IMG/VR virus record: IMGVR_UViG_3300045836_000169
Location: 1 to 50,629 of that record
Strand: one strand, 5' to 3'
Length of the DNA: 50,629 nt
Origin: a virus
Shown here: positions 36,161-47,219 of the stretch, piece by piece
Position numbering within the stretch: the stretch's first letter is position 1
Layout of the letters: each line of letters opens with the position of its first letter
Notes under the pieces: generated by a model
Database searches by the model: none
Seen by the model: only the letters and a program-made list of their open reading frames with translations
Told to the model about the DNA's origin: nothing
Program-made: the position numbers and the translations under genes

Positions 36161-37654
36161 TCAGGTCGCCTGGATGGACTGGATCACTCCGAACACCACG
36201 GGCGCCCGGTTGATCAGGGTCTCCACGGCGCGGGTCTCGCCGTCTTCACGCGGACCGCCGTGCGCCCTGTCCGAGCCGTACACGTAGTTGTACAGGTCGT
36301 CCAGGCAGCGCATCTCCAGCACGCGGGAGATGTTCGCGTTCGGGTAGGGCACGCTGTCGCGCTTGGCGATCAGCGTCCCGGGGGGCATGTTCGGGTAGAC
36401 CTTGATCGGGATCTGCTCGCCGGTGATCCGGTTGACGTACGAGCCGACCTTGCCGCCCGCGACGATCCGGCCACGGCCCGCGCCGTCGTCCATCGTCAGG
36501 TACGTGACCGCGCCCGGCGTGTTCAGCACGAGAGCCGACAGGGAGTTGGCCTCCTGGCTGGAGACCATGTACGCGCTCGGGCCGAGGTAGGTGGCGTTGT
36601 AGTACTGCTTGTTGAGGTTGTCGAGCTGCTGGATGCCGCCGCCCGACACGGTGAACTGCGAGCCGGCCGCGTCGATGATGGTCGCGCCGGAGTTGACGCC
36701 GGAGCCGTGCTGCACGATCACGCTGTTGTTCACGTAGTCGCCGGTCACGGTGGCCAGCAGGCCGTTGAACTCGTTCGTGCCCGCGCTGCCGTTGTCGGCT
36801 GCGGTGTTGATCGTCGGGACGGTGGTGGACAGGCCCGGCAGCGTGGTGGTCGGCGGGGTCTGGTTCGCGCCCGGCACGCTGGTCATCGTCACGGACGGGA
36901 TCGTGGTGGTCGTGTAGTAGAACCACGTGGTGCCGCCGTTGGTGGACTGGAACCAGTCGTAGGCGACCGCGCCGATGACGGACGGGACCGAGGCCGTCAC
37001 CGCGTGCGTGCCCGAGCCGACCGTGGAGGTCGTGATCAGGGCGCTGTTGGCGCGGCTGTTGCCGTTGCCCGCGCCGGTGCCGTCACCGTTGCAGTAGTAG
37101 TAGCCGGAGCCGGTGCGGGCGGCGACGCCCACGGTCAGCGCCGTGCTGTTGGCGATACTGCCGCCGGTGGTTGCGTCCGAGAGGGTCGGCGCGGCGGGCC
37201 GGGCGAGCGGGAAGTTCTGCCCGCCCATCCCCATCTTGTCCTCGCCGATCTTCCACTGGTTCATCGCGTTGTAGATCGCGATGGACTGGGCGTTGGCGTA
37301 GCCACGGGCCTTGGCGATCGCGTCGCGGGTGACGGTGTAGCCGATCGCCATCGGCTCGTACGCGGCCTGCACGAGGATCTGGGAGATGTTGGCCAGCGGG
37401 CCGGCGGCGTCGAACGCGACGGACGGCTTGGGCTGGCTGGAGTTGACGTTGAGCAGGACCTCCCACTGCGCGACGTCCGATCCCTGGTCGGGGCCGGTGC
37501 GCGGCAGTTCGTCCCGGAAGTCGGTCGGGACGGGGATCAGGCTGATCAGGTCGGAGAGGTCGACGCCCTTGATGCCGGTGGAGCTGGTGATACCAGAGGT
37601 CTGCGCCTTGGCGATGTTGAGCGTCTCGATCGTGATCTCGTCGAGCTCGGTCAT
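36161..37654 (-). CDS. Major capsid protein with inserted Ig-like domain
   Basis: 497 residues, HK97-fold candidate by position and by segments such as WEVLLNVNSSQPKPSVAFDAAG, LVQAAYEPMAIGYTVTRDAIAKARG and YMVSSQEANSLSALVLNTPG. Residues about 155-265 (PAAPTLSDATTGGSI ... AYDWFQSTNGGTTWFYYTTTT ... VTMTSVPGANQT) look like a fibronectin/Ig-type sandwich inserted into the capsid fold. The ATG at 37654 was chosen over the upstream frame. The gene is flanked by hairpins on both sides. Confidence 0.85.
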   Translation of the reverse strand: MTELDEITIETLNIAKAQTSGITSSTGIKGVDLSDLISLIPVPTDFRDELPRTGPDQGSDVAQWEVLLNVNSSQPKPSVAFDAAGPLANISQILVQAAYEPMAIGYTVTRDAIAKARGYANAQSIAIYNAMNQWKIGEDKMGMGGQNFPLARPAAPTLSDATTGGSIANSTALTVGVAARTGSGYYYCNGDGTGAGNGNSRANSALITTSTVGSGTHAVTASVPSVIGAVAYDWFQSTNGGTTWFYYTTTTIPSVTMTSVPGANQTPPTTTLPGLSTTVPTINTAADNGSAGTNEFNGLLATVTGDYVNNSVIVQHGSGVNSGATIIDAAGSQFTVSGGGIQQLDNLNKQYYNATYLGPSAYMVSSQEANSLSALVLNTPGAVTYLTMDDGAGRGRIVAGGKVGSYVNRITGEQIPIKVYPNMPPGTLIAKRDSVPYPNANISRVLEMRCLDDLYNYVYGSDRAHGGPREDGETRAVETLINRAPVVFGVIQSIQAT

Positions 37655-37683
37655 GCGGGGTGCCTGCCTTTCGTGGCATGACA

Positions 37684-37713
37684 AAGCCCCCGGGCATCAG
37701 CTCGCGGGGGCTT
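37684..37713 (-). terminator. Hairpin between scaffold and capsid genes
   Basis: AAGCCCCCG/CGGGGGCTT (9 bp, 12-base loop) followed on the minus strand by a short T run (CTTTGTC). It could trim transcription between scaffold and capsid. Confidence 0.5.
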
Positions 37714-37730: not shown

Positions 37731-39182
37731 CTATGCGTTGCCGAAGCGTCCCTTGATGGCGGCGATCGCGACCTCGCGCTGCGCCTGCTCCTTCGCCGGC
37801 CCGTCGGGCAGGGCCGCGAGGGCCTTGCGGATAGGGTCGAACTCGGGGCTGCGCTCGAAGCCGTCGCCGCGGTGGGAGGGCGCGAGACCGGCCTCGCCGG
37901 TGGCGCCGTTCAGCAGCGGGGACCTGCGGTCGTCAGGCTGGGCCAACGCCTTCTCCACGCGCCCGGTCTGGCTCCCCATCTGCGTGGTCAGCTCACCGAG
38001 CTGCTTCACCACGGATGCCATGGCCTCACCGAACGGAGCGAGCTGGGCTGCTACCGCCTTCGCAACGTCGTCCGACGCCGCGGCGGGCGCCTGGACGGTC
38101 TCGGTGCCCGGGATCACCCGGGCGTCATCCGGTGCGGCCGCACCGGAAGCCTTCGCGGCCGCCGCCTTGGCGGCCTTCTTGAGCAGCGCGCGCCGGCCGA
38201 TCTCGGCCAGCTCCGCCTCGGTCAGCCCGAACGCGCCCTTGGCGACCTCGGTCGCCGCGGCGGTCTCGGTGCCGGTGGTGGTTGCGGCCTGCTCGCCCTC
38301 GCGCACGCCGGTGGTGTCCGTGTTCGTCACGGTGCTCTCCTGGGGTTGGGGTGCCGCGTGCGCGGCGGGAGTGGTGGTGGCCGCCTTGGCGACGGCACCG
38401 GATTCGGCGTGCTCGGCGACCGCTACGCCGCCGACGAGCTTCGCGGCCTGCATCAGGCAGTCGCGGGCGGCCTGCAGGTCGAACACGTCGCCGAGGTCGC
38501 CCATGTCCCCGGCGCCGACTTCGGCGCCTTCGCGGGCGGCGAACGCCTCGAGGCGGGGACACAGCGCGAGGATCGCCTGCACGATGCCGTCGGCGGTGGC
38601 GGCGTCCTGGCCTTCCCACGCCGGGGAGCCGGGCTCGGCGGCGCCGTCGGCCTTGGCGACCTCGACGCCGAAGTGGTTGGCCGCCGCGCGGATCTTCGGC
38701 ATGGCCTTCTCGCCGAACGGGGACTGCGGGGCCCGCGACAGGGCGTTGCGCACGTGCGCCGCGTCGTGCACCGGGAAGTGCCGCTTGGAGCGCGGGGTCG
38801 TCTTGCCCTGCTCGTCCTTGGTGCCGCCCGGTTCGATGTACGCGAACGCCGAGTCGGGCAGGTCGTTGACGTCCGCGGTCGAGAGGTCGGCCTTGGCGAC
38901 GACTTCCACGGCGCGCCGGTCGGCGGCTTCCTTCATCAGCTTCGCGATCGCGCTGGGGCTGCCTGTCATGGTGACGGTCTCGCGCTCCGGCGCGGCCTGC
39001 GCTTCGGCCTTCTCGACCTGTTCGCGCACGAACTGCGGGTCGAACAGCGCCGGTCCGCCCTCCGGTGCGGCCGACTTGGCGATCAGCCACGGCGTGCCGT
39101 TCGCCGCCTTGTCCACCTGGTCCATGCGGTGGATGTCCGGGTCCACCAGCTCGCTGAACGGTTCCTCGTCGGGCGTGGTCAT
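37731..39182 (-). CDS. Scaffold-like protein with DUF6582-like domain
   Basis: 483 residues. The N-terminal part has HRMDQVDKAANGTPWLIAKSA and, at about 115-180, FAYIEPGGTKDEQGK then RHFPVHDAAHVRNALSRAPQ, a DUF6582-like segment. A long Ala/Glu/Lys-rich helical C-terminus (about 300-470) is typical of scaffolds lying between protease and capsid genes. The ATG overlaps the protease stop (ATGA). Confidence 0.7.
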   Translation of the reverse strand: MTTPDEEPFSELVDPDIHRMDQVDKAANGTPWLIAKSAAPEGGPALFDPQFVREQVEKAEAQAAPERETVTMTGSPSAIAKLMKEAADRRAVEVVAKADLSTADVNDLPDSAFAYIEPGGTKDEQGKTTPRSKRHFPVHDAAHVRNALSRAPQSPFGEKAMPKIRAAANHFGVEVAKADGAAEPGSPAWEGQDAATADGIVQAILALCPRLEAFAAREGAEVGAGDMGDLGDVFDLQAARDCLMQAAKLVGGVAVAEHAESGAVAKAATTTPAAHAAPQPQESTVTNTDTTGVREGEQAATTTGTETAAATEVAKGAFGLTEAELAEIGRRALLKKAAKAAAAKASGAAAPDDARVIPGTETVQAPAAASDDVAKAVAAQLAPFGEAMASVVKQLGELTTQMGSQTGRVEKALAQPDDRRSPLLNGATGEAGLAPSHRGDGFERSPEFDPIRKALAALPDGPAKEQAQREVAIAAIKGRFGNA

Positions 39183-39571
39183 CCGCTGCTCCTGCGTGTG
39201 ATTCGGCGGGCGGTGCCTTGCGGGGACCAGCCGGTGACCTTGCCGGCCTTGTAGAGGCGCCAGGCCTGTTCGCTGAGGATCGCGCCCACGAGCCAGTCGC
39301 CTGCCTTCACGACCGCCACGGAGCCGTCTGGGGCCGTGACCGGCCAGTCCGGGCCGCGGTAGATGTAGGACTCGACGATGGTCGCTTCGCCCTCGGTGCC
39401 GTCCGCGTGGAACATCCCGCTGCGGGCGCCGTTGCGCATGAACGAGAAGGCGGCCTTCTCCAGCTGCTCCGGGGTGAAGTAGTCGCGGCCGCCGTCCTGT
39501 CCCTTGCGGATGCGCGGGTCCGGTCCGGCCTGGTAGGCGATGCCGAGGACGTAACGCTGTTCGTCCGCCAT
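39179..39571 (-). CDS. XkdF-like prohead protease
   Basis: 130 residues. GGRDYFTPEQLEKAAFSFMRNG, GMFHADGTEGEATIVESYIY and KAGDWLVGAILSEQAWRLY match the XkdF-type capsid protease, with a His in FHADG and a Ser in ESYIY as candidate catalytic residues. It would process scaffold and capsid in the prohead. Portal and scaffold genes flank it. Confidence 0.8.
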   Translation of the reverse strand: MADEQRYVLGIAYQAGPDPRIRKGQDGGRDYFTPEQLEKAAFSFMRNGARSGMFHADGTEGEATIVESYIYRGPDWPVTAPDGSVAVVKAGDWLVGAILSEQAWRLYKAGKVTGWSPQGTARRITRRSSG

Positions 39572-39584
39572 GCGGCCTCCCTGG

Positions 39585-42500
39585 TCAGGCTGGGATGTTG
39601 GCGCAGCGGTCGCCCGGATGGACCGGGCATTGCAGGTCGCCGGACGGGTACGGGGTGCCGATCGGGACGGCTCCGGCCGCGGCGTTCTCGTCGCAGATCA
39701 CGCAAACCCGCGCGTCCCCGACGGTGATCTGCCGGGTGGCCTTCACTCCGGCGCGGCGGTAGGCCCGCATCGCGGCAGCCGACGATGCGCGGCTGATCTC
39801 GGTGGTGGCGATCAGTCGTGCGCGGGCCTGGTTGCCGAGCAGCGCCTTGATCTCCTCGGCGAGGTCTTCCGCGCTCACGCCGCGCAGCACGCCGTCGGCC
39901 AGAAGCCGCGCGAGATCCTCCAGCCGCGACTGGGCGATCGAGCGGATCTCGATGCCCTGCGCGTCCAGCAGTTCCCGCAGTCCGGAGCCGTCGCCCCACT
40001 CGCCGATCAGCATCTCGGCGATGTCCGTGCGCCCGGCTTCCCAGTCGCCGTACTCGGCCACGGCCTGATCGAGCGGGGTTCCGTCCGCTACCGCGTCGAG
40101 GATGGCGCGGGCGGAGGAGTCGCCGATCAGGTAGCCGTCGGTCCACAGGCCTGCCATGTCGCGGGCGAGGGCCTGCGCGAGGTGCGAGCGAACGCCCCAG
40201 GCGAGCAGGAACGCGACGGTGGCGTCGATCAGGCGTTGGCGCTTGTCCTGGTCGTCGTCGGTGTGCGCGGCTGCCGGTTGTGCCGTGAGGTACGCCGAGG
40301 CGAGCGCCGCGGCGTCGATGGCGGCGAGCATGTCTGCGGCCAGCAGCGGCGCCCAGTGGGCGATTGCGGCGAGGTCGAGGCGCCAGCCCGGCCAGTCATC
40401 TGACCGGGCCTGGTCTTTTGGGTCGCCGTCCGCCTTGGTCACTCCGTCGCGCGCTTCCCAGTGGTCGCACACCGCGCGCTCGTCGATGGCCCCTTGCACG
40501 AGCGTGCAGGCGCCGCTCTCGAAGTCCGGCGGGTTGAGCCGGAACATCGAGCAGTTGCCGCAGTGGCGGCCGTCCACGTCGCTCGGGTCGCGATAGTGCG
40601 CCTGCGCTTTGGTCAGCGTTGCGGCCTTGGCCACGCCCGAGCGCAGCGCGGCCAGCACGCGCGGCATGTCCGCCGCCAGTTCGCGCCGCACCGCAGGGTT
40701 GCTGACCAGCTGCTCAGGATCCCACCAGGCGATCGCCTCGACGTGATCGCGGCCCGGGTCGTCCGGGTTGATGACGCGGTCGCGCGGGTCGTCGATGCGC
40801 AGCACGCCCTCGTGCGGGACGGTCCAGACGAATCCGGCGTAGACGCCGTTCGAACTGGTCCACGCGCCGGTCTGCGCGCCGTCGGGCAGCGGGCTGCCGA
40901 CCTCTTCCTCCCACTCGCGGCTGGCTGCGGCGTGGGGCTGCTCGCCGGGCTCCAGGCATCCGCCGGGGAACTCCCAGGTGCCGGATGCCGGGTCGCTCTC
41001 GTCCATGCCGCGCTGGAGCATCAGTATGCGCCCGGTGTCGGCGGCGCGTACGGCGATGCCTGCGGCCTTCGGTCCGGCCGCCTTGGTCACGTCGGCGTCC
41101 GGGTCCTGGTGGGCGTGCAGTTCGTCCCACGGGCCTTCGGCGCGCTTGGGGTGCGCCACGTACGCCGGGACCGGCTCGTGGCGCGAGCGGTGCGCCAGGG
41201 CGTGGTGATGCCCGTCGGCGACCATCACTGTGGGCTGGCCTGGCCGCTGCACGGCGACGGAGGGCTTGGTGTCCTTGCCCTTGGCCATCCGGCGCGCGAG
41301 CTTGGCGACCTTCCCCGGCTCGCGGCTGGCACGCCACGACTCCAGGTTCGACCAGTCGACGCGGTCGAGCGGCAGATCCTCGCGGGTCCAGTGCTGCTCG
41401 AGCACCCAGCCGATCGAGTCGGCGGGGAAGTTCTCGGCCAGCTGGTTGTAGACCTCCCGCGCCGGGACGGCGCTGTCCTTCGGCGCGGGCTTTGCGGTGG
41501 GCTGCGCCTTGGCCTTCAGGACCGCGCTGACCTCGGCCCGGCCGCCGCGGTTGAGCTCGGAGGCGACGACGGGCGAGACGGCCTTGAACACGAAGTCGCG
41601 CGACCAGCGCCCGCGGCGCTTGCAGCCGGTGACGTACTCCCGGAACGCCAGCAGCTCCGCCGCCTCGGCGCCGCTGAGGTCCGCGCCCTTGGCCACCGGC
41701 TCCTGCTGCCCGGCGGAGCGCTGCTGGGTCTGGGAGCCCTGCGGCGCGGACCTCAGCGGCGCGTCCCCGGTGCCGGGCTGCGGCTGCTGGGCGCCGCGCT
41801 GCTCGCGCTGCGCCGGGGTCTCGCGGTTGGGGTCCTGCTGCGACTCCAGGGCGCGGCGCGTCTGCACCTGGTAGGCGTCGATCGCGGCCTGCGACGCCTT
41901 GTCGTCCGTCGTCCCGGGCGTGGGCACGACGGGGATCGGCGGCACGTACGGCTGATCGAGTACCAGCTGGCCCTTGGCGGGGCCGTAGGTCTCCGGGTCG
42001 GTCTTGCCCGCGGCGCCCTCGATGGCGAGCAGCGTGACCGGGCCCAGGCGCTGGGTGGAGAAGAACCGCGGCGTGGGCCGCTCCTTGTCCACCTTCTTGC
42101 CGAGAATGTCGACACGCACCTCGTCCGGGGACTCGGCGCCCATCTCCACGTACAGCTGGTGGGCCTGCGCCTCCTGGAGGCGGTCCTCCTTGTCGCGGCC
42201 GGTGTCGAGCGACACCTTGACCGGCAGGCCGATGTCGTGCTGCAGGTAGCGGCTCAGCGTGCCCTCGACGAACCGCACCCAGGGCAGCGTGTTGACGCGG
42301 AACTGGATGTCGACCTGGGTTTCGCCGTTGGCGCGGTTCACGTCCGAGACCAGGCCGAGATCCTGCGGCACGACGCCGAACGCGGCGCACGTGCGCTTCA
42401 TCAGCCACTCGGGGAACTTCGGGTCGAACGTGGCTGGCTTGGTGCCGGTGTACTTGCTGCCGTTGGGGACGGCGAGCAGCTGGTGCAGCTTGGCCTGGTC

Positions 42501-43433
42501 GCCCATGACCATGGCGTCCCAGTGGTCCTGCCACTCGCGCACCTGCGCGGGCTCGGAGACGTCCGGGGGCAGTTCCATGAACCCGGCCGGCACGCTGCCG
42601 TCGGTGAACAGCTGCAGGAAGTGCCACTGGAAGCGGATGTCGGTGTTCGCGGTCAACACGACGGACTCGATCGGCGCGAGCCCGTACGGGGAGTCCTCCT
42701 GCGGGCGGAACGGGGTGTAGATCAGGTCGTCGGTGGTGAACCACGTGCCGACCATGCCGTGGATGACCTGCCAGAACGCGGGCGCCGGGGGCTTGGGGCG
42801 GCGGCCGTGCTCGTCGATGTACGGGGCGATGGTGCGCCCGTCCACGACCTCCAGGCCGATGATGTCGCCGTTGTAGTCGCGGCGCTTGTACAGCGGGCAG
42901 GCGTCGTACTTGAGGGCGTTCTCCAGCCACTTGCTCAGCCACGCGTCGTAGGGCAGCTCGCGGTCGGGCTTGTCCAGCACGAGGCGAGCGGCGTCGATGG
43001 CGTCCTCGACGTCGTCCTCGACGCCGTGGGCGGGCTGGAACATCAGCGGCATGGAGCGCAGTTCGTCGATCTTGTGGTTGATGCACATGCGCGCCACGTC
43101 GTAGGCGTCGATCAGCGCCTTGAGCACGTCGAAGGAGACCTTGCCCCAGGCGGCGCGGCCCTGGGTGGCGATGTTGACGCCGACCGGGTAGTCCTGCGCG
43201 CGGGCCGGGGCGCTGTAGCCGAAGTAGGGCTGTAGCGGCCGGCCGGGGGTGAAGTTGCCGCCCTGGTTCATGCCGTGGGCGGTCAGGGCGTTCTCGATCG
43301 GCGCGGGCGTGGTGGCGGGGGCGAGGCGTGCGGGTGCGCGGTCAGCCGGGGCGCCGCCCATGCGGGCCAGGGAACGGGCCGCCGCGGGCTTGGCGGCGGA
43401 GACCTTGCGCGGCGGGGAGGACGCCTTGGCCAC
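39585..43433 (-). CDS. Portal fused to ParB-like, NUDIX, Cys-rich and MuF-type domains
   Basis: 1282 residues. About 60-480: portal (VARMCINHKIDELRSMP, FTTDDLIYTPFRPQEDSPYG, GVVPQDLGLVSDVNRANGET). About 480-650: Gln-rich linker. About 655-780: ParB/sulfiredoxin-like fold ending VADGHHHALAHRS. About 790-925: NUDIX hydrolase, box G-x5-E-x7-REWEEEVG with catalytic Glu intact. About 945-990: cluster HCGNCSMF, CTLVQG, VCDHW. About 1065-1282: MuF-like minor head domain (ATTEISRASSAAAMRAYRRAG; CVICDENAAAG; CPVHPGDRC). Starts inside the end of the terminase gene. Confidence 0.88.
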   Translation of the reverse strand: MAKASSPPRKVSAAKPAAARSLARMGGAPADRAPARLAPATTPAPIENALTAHGMNQGGNFTPGRPLQPYFGYSAPARAQDYPVGVNIATQGRAAWGKVSFDVLKALIDAYDVARMCINHKIDELRSMPLMFQPAHGVEDDVEDAIDAARLVLDKPDRELPYDAWLSKWLENALKYDACPLYKRRDYNGDIIGLEVVDGRTIAPYIDEHGRRPKPPAPAFWQVIHGMVGTWFTTDDLIYTPFRPQEDSPYGLAPIESVVLTANTDIRFQWHFLQLFTDGSVPAGFMELPPDVSEPAQVREWQDHWDAMVMGDQAKLHQLLAVPNGSKYTGTKPATFDPKFPEWLMKRTCAAFGVVPQDLGLVSDVNRANGETQVDIQFRVNTLPWVRFVEGTLSRYLQHDIGLPVKVSLDTGRDKEDRLQEAQAHQLYVEMGAESPDEVRVDILGKKVDKERPTPRFFSTQRLGPVTLLAIEGAAGKTDPETYGPAKGQLVLDQPYVPPIPVVPTPGTTDDKASQAAIDAYQVQTRRALESQQDPNRETPAQREQRGAQQPQPGTGDAPLRSAPQGSQTQQRSAGQQEPVAKGADLSGAEAAELLAFREYVTGCKRRGRWSRDFVFKAVSPVVASELNRGGRAEVSAVLKAKAQPTAKPAPKDSAVPAREVYNQLAENFPADSIGWVLEQHWTREDLPLDRVDWSNLESWRASREPGKVAKLARRMAKGKDTKPSVAVQRPGQPTVMVADGHHHALAHRSRHEPVPAYVAHPKRAEGPWDELHAHQDPDADVTKAAGPKAAGIAVRAADTGRILMLQRGMDESDPASGTWEFPGGCLEPGEQPHAAASREWEEEVGSPLPDGAQTGAWTSSNGVYAGFVWTVPHEGVLRIDDPRDRVINPDDPGRDHVEAIAWWDPEQLVSNPAVRRELAADMPRVLAALRSGVAKAATLTKAQAHYRDPSDVDGRHCGNCSMFRLNPPDFESGACTLVQGAIDERAVCDHWEARDGVTKADGDPKDQARSDDWPGWRLDLAAIAHWAPLLAADMLAAIDAAALASAYLTAQPAAAHTDDDQDKRQRLIDATVAFLLAWGVRSHLAQALARDMAGLWTDGYLIGDSSARAILDAVADGTPLDQAVAEYGDWEAGRTDIAEMLIGEWGDGSGLRELLDAQGIEIRSIAQSRLEDLARLLADGVLRGVSAEDLAEEIKALLGNQARARLIATTEISRASSAAAMRAYRRAGVKATRQITVGDARVCVICDENAAAGAVPIGTPYPSGDLQCPVHPGDRCANIPA

Positions 43434-44970
43434 GGCGCCCCCCTGCTGGTGTCGTGGTGGTGGTGGCGTCGCGCGCTGCGGTGGGGATCTCGATGCCGGC
43501 CTCTTGCGCGGCCTGCTTCATCGCCGCGAGGTACGCGCCGCCCTGCCCGTCGCCGCCGTAGAAGGCCAGCAGCAGCGCGTCGGCATTGTCCGGGGAGCGG
43601 CCGATGCGCTTCTTGGTCTCTTCCTTCTTCTCCACGACGATGCGCCGGGAGGAGTCCACGGTGTACTTCGGCGCCGTGAGCTGCGCGATGAGCCGTTCGC
43701 GGTCCGCGTCCTCGAGGGCGGACAGATCCCAGCCGCGGTCCTCGGTCAGCTGGCGGCCGATCTCCCACCAGATCTGCGAGCGCAGCCGGGGGAAGCGTTC
43801 GGGTTTGGCGGAGGCTTCCCCGACGTTGACCGGCACGACGCGGCAGTCGTGCTCGCCCTTGGCCCGGCGCCGTCGCAAGGAACCGACCACGCCCCAGCCG
43901 ACACCGATCACGTCCACCTTGACCGCGGTGGCGCCGGTCTCGTGGATGGCCTCGACCACCAGGTCAACGAGCTCTTCGCTCTCACGGGTGCGGGTGCGCC
44001 ACTCGCGGCCGACCACGATCCCGCGTCTTTCGCGGATCGCCGCCTCGTCGTCTCCGCCGGCGCCGACGTCCACGCCGAGTTCGACCGGCAGCAGCCGCTC
44101 CGGGGCGTACGCGGACTCCGGCGGCAGGGCGCAGGCGCGCAGCTTGGACAGGCGCACCACGCCGTCGCTGGCCTCTTCCGGGAAGCGGCCGAGCACCTTG
44201 GAGATGTAGACCGGGGAGCCTTCGCCGAAGTCACGGGCGATCTCGCGCTCGTACGAACGAGAGACCAGCATCTCGCTCAGCTCTGCGGGCACCTGCTCGC
44301 CGGTGAAGTTCGGCGAGTCGAAGACCGAGATCTCGATCAGGTTCCAGTCGCCGCCCGCGCACACCGTCGCGAAGTACGAACCAGGGTCGTCCGGGTTGCC
44401 GATCGCGAGAATGCGGCAGTGCTCACCGGTGGCGATCGAGTTGGCCGCCGTCCAGAAGTGCTTGGTGACGCCGCATGCCTCGTCGATGATGACCAGCACG
44501 AACTTGGCGTGAATGCCCTGAAACGCGTGCTCGTTGTAGTCCGAGGGTTTGCGCCCGAACGCCACGAGTTGGTTGTCGAGCATCCACTCGGTCTGGTTGA
44601 CGATGCCGCGGAACGGGTTACCGCGCGCAGCGGCCTTGTGCGCCGCGCCGTTGATCTCCGCCCAGAGGATCGCCTTGACCTGGTCGCCGGTGGGTGCGGT
44701 GGTCACCACGCGCGCGGTGCCGGGTGGGTGGGCGTCGAGCCACCACGCGGTCAGGCGTGAGGCTACGAAGCTCTTACCGACACCGTGGCACGACTGGACG
44801 GCGGTACGCCGCTGGTCGCGCACGGACTCGACGATCTGCACCTGCTTGGTCCACAGATGCTCGCCGAGCTTCTCGCGCACCCAGGCGTCGGGTCGGGCGA
44901 GGTAGTCATCGGGTGTAGGGCGCTCGAACTCGCGGGCGGCGTGTTCGGCCCAGTCGAGCGCGGCAGTCAT
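43342..44970 (-). CDS. Terminase large subunit
   Basis: 542 residues; the ATP-driven packaging motor and nuclease. Walker A SCHGVGKS near residue 60, Walker B FVLVIIDEA near 160, nuclease motif GVDVGAGGDDEAAI near 295, and a later acidic motif DNADALLLAFYGG. The last ~30 residues overlap the portal gene by 92 bases and are basic/low complexity. It follows the small subunit by 13 bases. Confidence 0.95.
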   Translation of the reverse strand: MTAALDWAEHAAREFERPTPDDYLARPDAWVREKLGEHLWTKQVQIVESVRDQRRTAVQSCHGVGKSFVASRLTAWWLDAHPPGTARVVTTAPTGDQVKAILWAEINGAAHKAAARGNPFRGIVNQTEWMLDNQLVAFGRKPSDYNEHAFQGIHAKFVLVIIDEACGVTKHFWTAANSIATGEHCRILAIGNPDDPGSYFATVCAGGDWNLIEISVFDSPNFTGEQVPAELSEMLVSRSYEREIARDFGEGSPVYISKVLGRFPEEASDGVVRLSKLRACALPPESAYAPERLLPVELGVDVGAGGDDEAAIRERRGIVVGREWRTRTRESEELVDLVVEAIHETGATAVKVDVIGVGWGVVGSLRRRRAKGEHDCRVVPVNVGEASAKPERFPRLRSQIWWEIGRQLTEDRGWDLSALEDADRERLIAQLTAPKYTVDSSRRIVVEKKEETKKRIGRSPDNADALLLAFYGGDGQGGAYLAAMKQAAQEAGIEIPTAARDATTTTTPAGGRRGQGVLPAAQGLRRQARGGPFPGPHGRRPG

Positions 44971-46294: not shown

Positions 46295-46876
46295 TTACTC
46301 GGTGACGCCGGGCACGATCGGCCGGTGGGGCACGGACGGTGCCGCGGTCGCCTCGTTCTGCTCGAGCACGAGGTGCCAGAGGTCTTCGGGCGTCACGTAC
46401 CCGTCCCAGCGCCCGTCGGCGTACAGGTGCCATCCGCCGTTCGCTGCGGCGCGGTCGGCCAGCTGGCTGCACATCATGTGCTTGCTGCTGCGCACGTAGC
46501 TTCGCAGCCACGGGATCGGCAGGTGCAGCCGGTGCGCGGCGATCGCGGCGTAGTCGGCGAACGAGTACGGGGTGTCGCGCAGGGCGAGTGCTGCCTGGGC
46601 GACGTCGCCGCGGTACTGCTCAGGACAGCGCAGCCACGCGATGCCCCGCGGGTCGTACTCGGTGAGCGGGACTTCGCGTGCTCCGCCGGGTTCGGCTTCG
46701 ACGATCAGTACGTGTGGCGGCTGCCCGTTGCCGGACGGGACGACTTCGGTAACGACGAAGGCGTGCTCATAGTTGGCGAAGCCGTCGCCGTTGAGCCACT
46801 GGCCTACGCGGATGCCGAGGCCGACCGCGCCGCGGATCTGCGTGAGGCCGATGTCACCGGGCTGGGGCTGGTACAT
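46295..46876 (-). CDS. Papain-like cysteine peptidase/amidase (YiiX/NlpC-P60-like)
   Basis: 193 residues from ATG 46876 (GGAGGG upstream). PQPGDIGLTQIRG, then NYEHAFVVTEVV with the His, PPHVLIVEAEPGG, and KHMMCSQLAD with the Cys, give the circularly permuted His-before-Cys order of YiiX/LRAT-like NlpC-P60 proteins. Could cut cell-wall peptides or amide bonds. No signal peptide. Confidence 0.75.
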   Translation of the reverse strand: MYQPQPGDIGLTQIRGAVGLGIRVGQWLNGDGFANYEHAFVVTEVVPSGNGQPPHVLIVEAEPGGAREVPLTEYDPRGIAWLRCPEQYRGDVAQAALALRDTPYSFADYAAIAAHRLHLPIPWLRSYVRSSKHMMCSQLADRAAANGGWHLYADGRWDGYVTPEDLWHLVLEQNEATAAPSVPHRPIVPGVTE

Positions 46877-47007
46877 GCGGATCCCTCCCCGTGCTCGGGG
46901 CAGCAGTGCCGTGTGGCGCTGCGGTCGATGCTTTCGCCGGTGGCGAAGTCCACCTCGGTGAAGCGGGCGCAGCAACAGCCGGCGCGATGGTCGGTGCCGC
47001 TGGCCAT
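46804..47007 (-). CDS. Small Cys/His-rich protein
   Basis: 67 residues from ATG 47007 (TGATG overlap with the upstream stop). CCCARFTEVDFATGES and HCCPEH could bind zinc. The 3' end overlaps the peptidase gene by 73 bases in another frame, so the exact extent is less certain. Confidence 0.5.
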   Translation of the reverse strand: MASGTDHRAGCCCARFTEVDFATGESIDRSATRHCCPEHGEGSACTSPSPVTSASRRSAARSASASA

Positions 47008-47219
47008 CAGGCGTCCGGACCGAGCACGGCCCGCTTGTTGCGCAGCGCCTTGGCGCGCCGTCGCCCGGGTCCGCTGGCCGGGATGGTGCGCTCGAACCCG
47101 CGCGCCTCGTCGTTGGCCTTCCGCTCGACCAGGCGCGCATTGCGCCGGGAGAACCGCTGAGCAGCCGCGACCTGGCGAAGGTGTAGGTCGTAGCCAGTGA
47201 GGCGTCTGCGCCGGATCAC
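47007..47219 (-). CDS. Small basic protein
   Basis: 70 residues from GTG 47219, overlapping the previous stop. Very Arg/Lys-rich (RRRRLTGYDLHLRQVAAAQRFSRR; GRRRAKALRNKRAVLG), so probably nucleic-acid binding. No fold assigned. Confidence 0.65.
   Translation of the reverse strand: MIRRRRLTGYDLHLRQVAAAQRFSRRNARLVERKANDEARGFERTIPASGPGRRRAKALRNKRAVLGPDA

Follow-up and report, generated by a model that had tools for sequence, protein, structure and literature searches.

The window analysed here, a stretch of 50,629 nucleotides from the IMG/VR virus record IMGVR_UViG_3300045836_000169, carries a block of head genes on its minus strand. Among them, a single unbroken ORF joins portal, ParB-like, NUDIX, Cys-cluster and MuF parts in one polypeptide, as a preliminary description had claimed. 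Its frame is stop-free throughout, from a GTG start, and it is flanked by the terminase gene on one side and by the genes for the protease, the scaffold and the major capsid protein (MCP) on the other. The features are listed below, and the L-numbers used in the text are labels of relative loci.

43342-44970, minus strand: terminase large subunit, upstream of the fusion and overlapping it by 92 bp (PHROG 2, E 5.1e-35)
39585-43433, minus strand: whole fusion ORF, 1282 aa, in the order portal, helical hairpin ("Link"), ParB-like, NUDIX, Cys cluster, MuF
42114-43097, minus strand: portal domain, residues 113-440 (Pfam PF04860, Phage_portal, E 6.3e-23; PHROG 2662, E 1.4e-55)
41685-41696, minus strand: candidate protease site VAK|G, residue 580, at the portal/Link junction
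41487-41693, minus strand: "Link" helical-hairpin module, residues 581-649 (AFRxF..RRGxWxRDFxF..LNxxGRAEV)
41112-41465, minus strand: ParB/sulfiredoxin-like domain, about residues 657-774, motif DGHHH
41079-41090, minus strand: candidate protease site VTK|A, residue 782, at the ParB/NUDIX junction, in a low-pLDDT linker
40626-41078, minus strand: NUDIX hydrolase domain, residues 786-936 (PF00293 at 789-919, E 4.7e-16)
40893-40961, minus strand: Nudix box, residues 825-847, with every catalytic Glu in place
40605-40634, minus strand: candidate protease sites VAK|A (934) and LTK|A (940), at the NUDIX/Cys junction, in a low-pLDDT linker
40434-40607, minus strand: Cys-cluster segment, residues 943-1000
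40431-40442, minus strand: candidate protease site VTK|A, residue 998, at the Cys/MuF junction, in a low-pLDDT linker
39588-40379, minus strand: MuF (SPP1 gp7-like) minor head domain, residues 1019-1282 (PF04233, TIGR01641)
39179-39571, minus strand: XkdF-type head maturation protease (Peptidase_S78_2; PF14550, E 3.5e-15; PHROG 3017)
37731-39182, minus strand: scaffold-like protein with 11 copies of h-x-K-[AGS]
36161-37684, minus strand: MCP (PHROG 13692; position as the MCP of Sonali and Mufasa8), with IAK|A in the N-arm

The presence of portal and MuF domains in one open frame identifies the predicted product as a portal-MuF fusion head protein, and PHROGs concur with Pfam on the portal, NUDIX and MuF/head morphogenesis assignments. 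In the MuF part, the Phage_Mu_F profile matches residues 1175-1249 (E 1.9e-6) with 29.0 bits against a Pfam cut-off of 29.6, which the relatives exceed well, and TIGR01641 matches with E 4.7e-7. Structure prediction of each segment with AF2 (from an alignment that excluded the Sonali and Mufasa8 rows) was confident for the NUDIX domain (pLDDT about 90), for MuF (about 95) and for the hairpin that precedes the cargo, that is, the Link module (about 95), which is also kept in relatives. The ParB and Cys parts were modelled with low confidence, the former reaching a pLDDT of 45 by itself.

The ParB-like identity is the weakest domain call in the fusion, and the support for it is indirect. No Pfam match over the cut-off was obtained for this domain in the window, and profile matches to SbnI/free serine kinases of the ParB/Srx superfamily are weak (E 0.05-0.4). 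A ParB-like HMM is common to L001-L004, L015 and L028, the homologue L137 matches PHROG 1033 'ParB-like partition protein' (E 5.6e-6), and the DGHHH motif of the window reads DGHHR in most relatives. Only L014 and L028 share the Cys cluster (C-x2-C...C...C, residues about 962-992) with the window, L066 giving a weak match; a search among annotated phages gave no match at E 0.01.

Since the window is one metagenomic contig and the ORF overlaps the terminase gene by 92 bp, it could be argued that an assembly or frameshift fault has merged separate genes, an objection already foreseen in the preliminary description. However, the portal and the same NUDIX occur together in more than 50 independent IMG/VR contigs, in six bacterial genome records (the same fusion is found in Streptomyces, Kitasatospora and Subtercola) and in two completely sequenced, isolated Arthrobacter phages, Sonali and Mufasa8. 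An artefact was ruled out on these grounds, its probability being practically negligible. The fusion itself is not essential, because in several relatives, L006, L007 and L009 among them, the portal, NUDIX and MuF parts are divided among ORFs that either stand apart or overlap.

The window has a complete Nudix box (GX5EX7REUXEEXGU), which reads G825-CLEPG-E831-QPHAAAS-R839-E840-W-E-E843-E844-V-G846-S847, and the full set of catalytic Glu residues reported earlier is thus confirmed. Loss of these residues in close relatives, which had been raised as a possible objection, is not what is seen: among 53 relatives, E840 and E843 are kept in 53/53, E844 in 52/53 and E831 in 92%. The active-site residues rank among the best-conserved positions, and the domain is evolving under purifying selection (dN/dS 0.18-0.61). 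With regard to the substrate class, the fold matches (Foldseek E 1e-5 to 1e-4) are headed by ADP-ribose pyrophosphatases (ADPRases), with MutT2 and BdRppH close behind, whereas the sequence matches are headed by MutT/RppH/CTPase-type enzymes, the profiles including MutT, CTP pyrophosphohydrolase and MutT2. Due to this disagreement between the two lists, assignment of the substrate by the nearest structure was dropped. An invariant Tyr (Y865) lies 17-18 residues past the Nudix box, a spacing reminiscent of a rule for dinucleoside-polyphosphate hydrolases that serves as a lead only.

The NUDIX subfamily of the window sits almost only on head proteins. In annotated phages, 4/4 distinct members are attached to such proteins (portal-MuF in Sonali and Mufasa8, MuF in Pam4 and the S78 protease in Gilgamesh), and of the 79 IMG/VR loci whose NUDIX is most similar, 75 have it in one ORF with portal, MuF or XkdF; beyond these, Pfam reveals two more, L137 (Mu-type portal) and L178 (MuF). 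As part of a portal-MuF chain, the domain plausibly lies inside the capsid.

The gap between portal and MuF is a slot where cargo is exchanged. The nearest relative, L025, shares 85% identity with the window across the first 677 residues of the ORF (91% in the portal); it then holds a 2H phosphoesterase, with both HxT motifs present, where the window has ParB-NUDIX-Cys, followed by a MuF that is 44% identical. The slot of other relatives contains ParB, ParB+2H, NUDIX or nothing, and a portal tree built from 80 rows shows 16 changes of cargo state. Among 79 portal-defined relatives, NUDIX is found on portal/MuF proteins in 53 and 2H in 6, while in 20 the slot lacks any of the three enzymes. Cargo at the portal-MuF site is therefore common, contrary to the rarity that had been assumed for it. 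The idea of a portal/MuF-NUDIX fusion is not new either, because a 2022 paper (PMC9503650) already presents such fusions.

A short motif, [V/L/I/F]-x-K-[A/S/G], recurs at the domain junctions, along the whole scaffold and in the N-arms of major capsid proteins; this protease-like junction motif, the exchange at the slot and the occurrence of the NUDIX subfamily on other head proteins were all missed in the preliminary description. The copies at the internal junctions sit in AF2 linkers with a pLDDT below 50. Measured against shuffles that leave the relatedness among sequences in place, the motif occurs in the window 5 times in 287 linker residues (0.15 expected) and 6 times in the scaffold (0.35 expected), with 0 occurrences among 5066 terminase residues and 1 among 3313 residues of three other long ORFs of the window. 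Counted with wide margins, and with the Link and NUDIX profiles overlapping at Link|NUDIX, 30/33 junctions carry the motif in the window's clade (5.6 expected) and 137/174 overall (35.6 expected). Position scans run separately on linkers and scaffolds yield the same profile (Lys 5.4x vs 5.3x; V at P3 7.1x vs 8.6x; A/S at P1' 6-8x), and a slightly relaxed motif is present in 60/60 capsid N-arms. The enrichment extends to XkdF phages of Lactococcus, Enterococcus and Bacillus and to another Arthrobacter phage genus.

The window combines an adjoining protease gene with a site that resembles FNK|S of HK97 and is enriched in the linkers, the scaffold and the N-arm of the MCP, as expected of substrates of HK97/XkdF-type proteases. 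The adjacent XkdF-type protease, presumed to be the processing enzyme of the chain, probably cuts at this motif. Not every match can be cleavable, since looser copies (VLKA 103, VFKA 615, MAKG 716) fall within folded parts. The strict motif is absent from the linkers in 30/73 loci, and independent fusions show less enrichment (L137, p 0.02; L183, p 0.11). No copy was found in the PBP180 capsid N-arm or in Gilgamesh gp52, a search for capsid homologues with solved mature N-termini found none, and a literature search on XkdF cleavage specificity and ul36 capsid N-termini returned nothing.

According to these data, we propose a head-assembly polyprotein, in which a portal-MuF chain with exchangeable cargo would be cut by the XkdF protease and the NUDIX delivered to the host, a model whose chances we judge to be about even. 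The portal part would form the DNA-entry ring and the MuF part would be a minor head protein at this ring, with the segment between them acting as the cargo slot, here occupied by the ParB-like domain, the intact NUDIX and the Cys-cluster peptide. Because cargo and portal are one chain, about 12 cargo copies would be incorporated per prohead. The neighbouring protease would cut after Lys at [V/L/I/F]-x-K|[A/S/G] in the scaffold, the capsid N-arm and the fusion junctions, releasing portal, NUDIX (785-936, about 16 kDa) and MuF (1001-1282, about 30 kDa). The released NUDIX may be retained in the head, exit with the DNA and hydrolyse a nucleotide-diphosphate-type compound as infection starts, either a defence signal (ADP-ribose-type or other) or a harmful nucleotide. 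More generally, and with somewhat less than an even chance, XkdF-protease phages could share a way of loading cargo in which swappable NUDIX, 2H, ParB-like and other modules, placed inside portal-MuF or other head proteins and flanked by h-x-K|[A/S/G], are freed in the prohead by an XkdF/S78-type protease for injection.

It is also conceivable that the chain is left uncut and the cargo remains attached to the portal within the capsid, h-x-K-A being a docking or flexible-linker motif. Portal-MuF fusions exist in Microbacterium cluster EA phages, which are reported to lack a maturation protease gene (PMC7302621), and the motif also appears in long, possibly helical scaffold stretches. Nevertheless, the specificity profile obtained separately from linkers and scaffolds is the same and matches the HK97 cut site, and an XkdF protease gene is present in 75 of the relative loci retrieved, which makes a permanent fusion unlikely. 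A role of the NUDIX in the cytoplasm of the phage-making cell (the clean-up of oxidised or unwanted nucleotides, or the breakdown of defence signals late in infection), with portal attachment merely coupling its expression to the late genes, would agree with the MutT, CTP pyrophosphohydrolase and MutT2 profile matches and with the relatives that encode NUDIX on its own ORF. For such a role, however, a soluble gene would suffice, and packaging is favoured both by the near-exclusive presence of the subfamily on several unrelated head proteins and by the swap for 2H at the same spot, so that we regard it as quite improbable. Relatives devoid of recognised cargo, together with L043, whose Nudix box reads EVVG in place of EEVG, might indicate that the inserted domains are a structural spacer or decoration with no need for catalysis. 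This is very improbable given the conservation of the active site, a dN/dS below 1 and the fact that the replacement domain is another phosphoesterase with its HxT motifs.

If the polyprotein model is correct, a short motif would predict the proteins loaded and freed in the heads of a large phage group and its HK97-like relatives, and the question of what phages inject besides DNA would turn into a sequence search. The model would also describe a natural modular route by which an enzyme enters the capsid in as many copies as the portal. The swap between NUDIX and 2H at one slot would suggest that small nucleotide molecules are competed for during the first minutes of infection. The isolated Arthrobacter phages allow a direct test. 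Their gp3 proteins are annotated as 'portal and MuF-like fusion protein' in Sonali and, by RefSeq, as 'MutT/NUDIX hydrolase' in Mufasa8. As in the window, portal, NUDIX and MuF form one chain, with the XkdF-type protease and the MCP downstream in the same order, but both phages lack the ParB-like domain and the Cys cluster, and their portals are about 47-50% identical to that of the window.

The protease of HK97 belongs to Peptidase_S78. The cut of HK97 gp5 after K103 reads FNK|S, which fits the motif, and four motif copies are found in its scaffold domain. This domain, of 103 residues, sets the cleavage point (PMC10275583). In comparison with HK97 gp4/gp5, the protease of the window is of the XkdF type (S78_2), and its presumed substrates include an enzyme-bearing portal fusion. 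The SPN3US prohead protease gp245 also cuts many head proteins, portal included, at a short motif (PMC10052503); contrary to the presumed protease of the window, it cuts after AXE, strips N-terminal propeptides and frees no enzyme modules.

Enzymes attached to head proteins have been described in several other phages. Iyer and colleagues (2022, PMC9503650) reported fusions in which portal, MuF or head protease carries a Nudix or 2H domain, and proposed that such enzymes are packaged and injected against nucleotide signals; the examples given there are mainly T4 NudE- or NadM-like Nudix, and the sections consulted describe neither cargo swap at one slot within a family nor cleavage motifs. The window likewise presents one feature expected of a packaged effector, an enzymatic domain fused to a head protein. 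In the MuF-VIP2/ADP-ribosyltransferase fusions of Microbacterium clusters EH and EJ (PMC7302621), the enzyme is attached to MuF, whereas the enzymes of the window lie between portal and MuF and not on MuF alone. An ART domain placed after MuF in L036 resembles those fusions. Polyvalent proteins (Iyer et al. 2017, PMC5512222) combine MuF/portal with enzymes in multi-domain proteins inferred to enter the host; compared with them, the portal scaffold, in which a single slot is exchangeable, is of smaller size and is linked to the assembly of the head.

On the - strand of the window, a virus record from IMG/VR, the head genes follow the order terminase, fusion, XkdF-type protease, scaffold-like protein and major capsid protein, as assigned from Pfam/PHROGs matches and from the identical order in the isolated Arthrobacter phages Sonali and Mufasa8.

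Head genes of the window (basis: Pfam/PHROGs and gene order)
43342-44970, -, terminase
39585-43433, -, fusion ORF, single stop-free frame, 1282 aa
39179-39571, -, XkdF-type protease
37731-39182, -, scaffold-like protein
36161-37684, -, major capsid protein

The single polypeptide claimed in the preliminary description is borne out by this one stop-free 1282-aa frame, which holds portal, NUDIX and MuF domains plus a ParB-like domain and a Cys cluster. The fusion ORF shares 92 bp with that of the terminase (43342-43433), and its start position is provisional. Upstream of the terminase, 46295-47140 shows an enoyl-CoA hydratase-like PHROG match (phrog_1128, E 6e-15). The fusion itself is already a known type, because Iyer and colleagues (PMC9503650) described Nudix and 2H domains joined to portal, MuF and head protease proteins, with the idea of injection, and because Sonali and Mufasa8 carry the same fusion under plain annotation. 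What appears to be new at the sequence level is an exchangeable slot between portal and MuF and a shared cleavage-like motif, the novelty of the XkdF motif being judged within a library of open-access papers.

Searches with the fusion protein and the portal alignment recovered about 100 IMG/VR loci, six bacterial genome records (Subtercola, three from Streptomyces, Catenulispora and Kitasatospora) and two isolated phages. Domains were mapped on these relatives with HMMs made in this analysis, and among 79 non-redundant loci NUDIX is found on portal/MuF proteins in 53, 2H in six and ParB-like in six, while this mapping detected none of the three in 20. The NUDIX box had been credited with the full set of catalytic Glu residues, and relatives retain this signature: E840 and E843 are kept in 53/53, E844 in 52/53 and E831 in 92%, with W858, Y865, E875, W903 and R916 as further invariant positions. 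Among the relatives, only L043 (4400-4858) has its catalytic EE pair damaged: the box reads REWQEVVG, one metal-binding Glu being replaced by Val. Pairwise dN/dS of NUDIX (0.18-0.61) is near that of the portal and mostly below that of MuF, these values being rough because synonymous sites are compositionally constrained. In seven relatives (L007, L009, L006, L033, L035, L036 and L039) portal, NUDIX and MuF are split across adjacent or overlapping ORFs, reflecting gene fission or sequencing errors. Intein-like insertions occur in the MuF Cys/His end of L014 (5198-6340) and in the portal domains of L017 (896-2107, where the insertion includes HTH and LAGLIDADG-like segments) and L071 (5008-6033).

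Judged by sequence, the NUDIX subfamily of the window belongs to head proteins. Compared with 50,697 phage records (E 1e-8), it matched four distinct phages, in all four on head proteins: portal-MuF in Sonali and Mufasa8, MuF in Pam4, and a Peptidase_S78 head protease in Gilgamesh. An IMG/VR scan by NUDIX alone, in which portal was not a selection criterion, gave 79 scored loci, and in 75 the NUDIX ORF also encodes portal, MuF or XkdF. The remaining four comprise fusions to a Mu-type portal (L137) and to MuF (L178), a locus with its 5' end cut off (L117), and a NUDIX-2H protein with PHROG matches to head proteins (L152). A single ORF of L183 (3569-6016) combines NUDIX, histidine phosphatase and XkdF protease. 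The product annotated as 'RNA ligase' in Arthrobacter phage Salgado (gp18, L105:4269-5390) joins a 2H phosphoesterase to an XkdF protease, and related Lactococcus XkdF proteins are annotated as 'DNA methyltransferase'.

The closest relative by portal, L025 (91% identical), carries a 2H phosphoesterase where the window has ParB-NUDIX-Cys; similarity ends abruptly past the helical-hairpin Link module that follows the portal, and returns in MuF. In the subclade of ten rows to which the window belongs, the slot is occupied by 2H (n=4), ParB+NUDIX (n=4), ParB+2H (n=1) or ParB alone (n=1), 2H being assigned from PF13563 (slightly below to above cut-off) and two HxT motifs in every copy. The portal tree requires a minimum of 16 cargo-state changes, and the closest relatives differ by part of the chain (portal, L025; NUDIX, L001; Cys, L028/L014; MuF, L047). 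The 2H family has been proposed to clear nucleotide signals, and since NUDIX is exchanged with it in the slot, the NUDIX target is likely to be of some nucleotide type. After MuF, L036 (8816-9496), whose portal ORF has NUDIX, encodes an ADP-ribosyltransferase exoenzyme domain (PF03496, E 2.7e-23), a position that we regard as a second cargo site, and L089 (9049-9870) a PI3/4-kinase-like stretch (PF00454, E 2e-4, under cut-off).

The motif [VIL][AT]K[AGS] lies at the portal/Link (580), ParB/NUDIX (782), NUDIX/Cys (934 and 940) and Cys/MuF (998) junctions of the window, that is, five copies per 287 linker residues versus 0.15 expected, a count reached by 0/10,000 shuffles. The scaffold holds six versus 0.35 expected. 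No copy occurs in the 5066 residues of the terminases, and a single one in the 3313 residues of three further long window ORFs, of which only one has a PHROG tail match. This enrichment is significant in the window by itself, and the linker and scaffold protein classes are mutually unrelated. Over all relatives, 90 copies fall in linkers versus 25 in domains, and the motif is the most frequent of the 24 orderings of its residue classes in linkers. Position-by-position scans of linkers and scaffolds, performed separately, gave one common profile, with Lys alone enriched at the third position (5.4x in linkers, 5.3x in scaffolds), V and other hydrophobics two residues before it, and A or S after it. 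The general form h-x-K-[A/S/G] marks 30/33 domain junctions in the clade of the window (5.6 expected by shuffling) and 137/174 in all loci (35.6 expected), although these shuffle tests ignore kinship among sequences and thus overstate the count of independent events; within domains, 8-10% of equal-length segments contain it. A slightly relaxed form occurs in 60/60 capsid N-arms, and protease/scaffold proteins are likewise enriched in XkdF-type phages of Lactococcus, Enterococcus, Bacillus and Arthrobacter (Salgado).

An AlphaFold2 model of residues 581-1282 (32-row alignment) is confident for the helical hairpin, NUDIX and MuF and poor for the ParB-like part; the segments separating the confident domains have pLDDT <50, and motifs 782, 934, 940 and 998 lie within or at the edge of such segments. 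Structural matches of the modelled NUDIX are headed by ADP-ribose pyrophosphatases, with BdRppH and MutT2 close after. Portal rings contain about 12 copies, and from its portal position and MuF fusion we infer that the chain would be built in at the portal vertex in about that number. Given the adjoining XkdF-type protease and the motif pattern, this enzyme would cut it into portal, Link-ParB, NUDIX (predicted 16 kDa), Cys peptide and MuF (predicted 30 kDa). The cargo may then be delivered along with DNA, because such behaviour is known for MuF and internal head proteins, as described in PMC5512222 and PMC9503650.

In the HK97 capsid protein, the cleavage point reads FNK|S, and four of the five motif matches lie within the domain that is removed. 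The exact bond is K103|S104. Cleavage in this protein follows its 103-residue scaffold domain (PMC10275583). The HK97 cut site FNK|S resembles the junction motif of the window's fusion.
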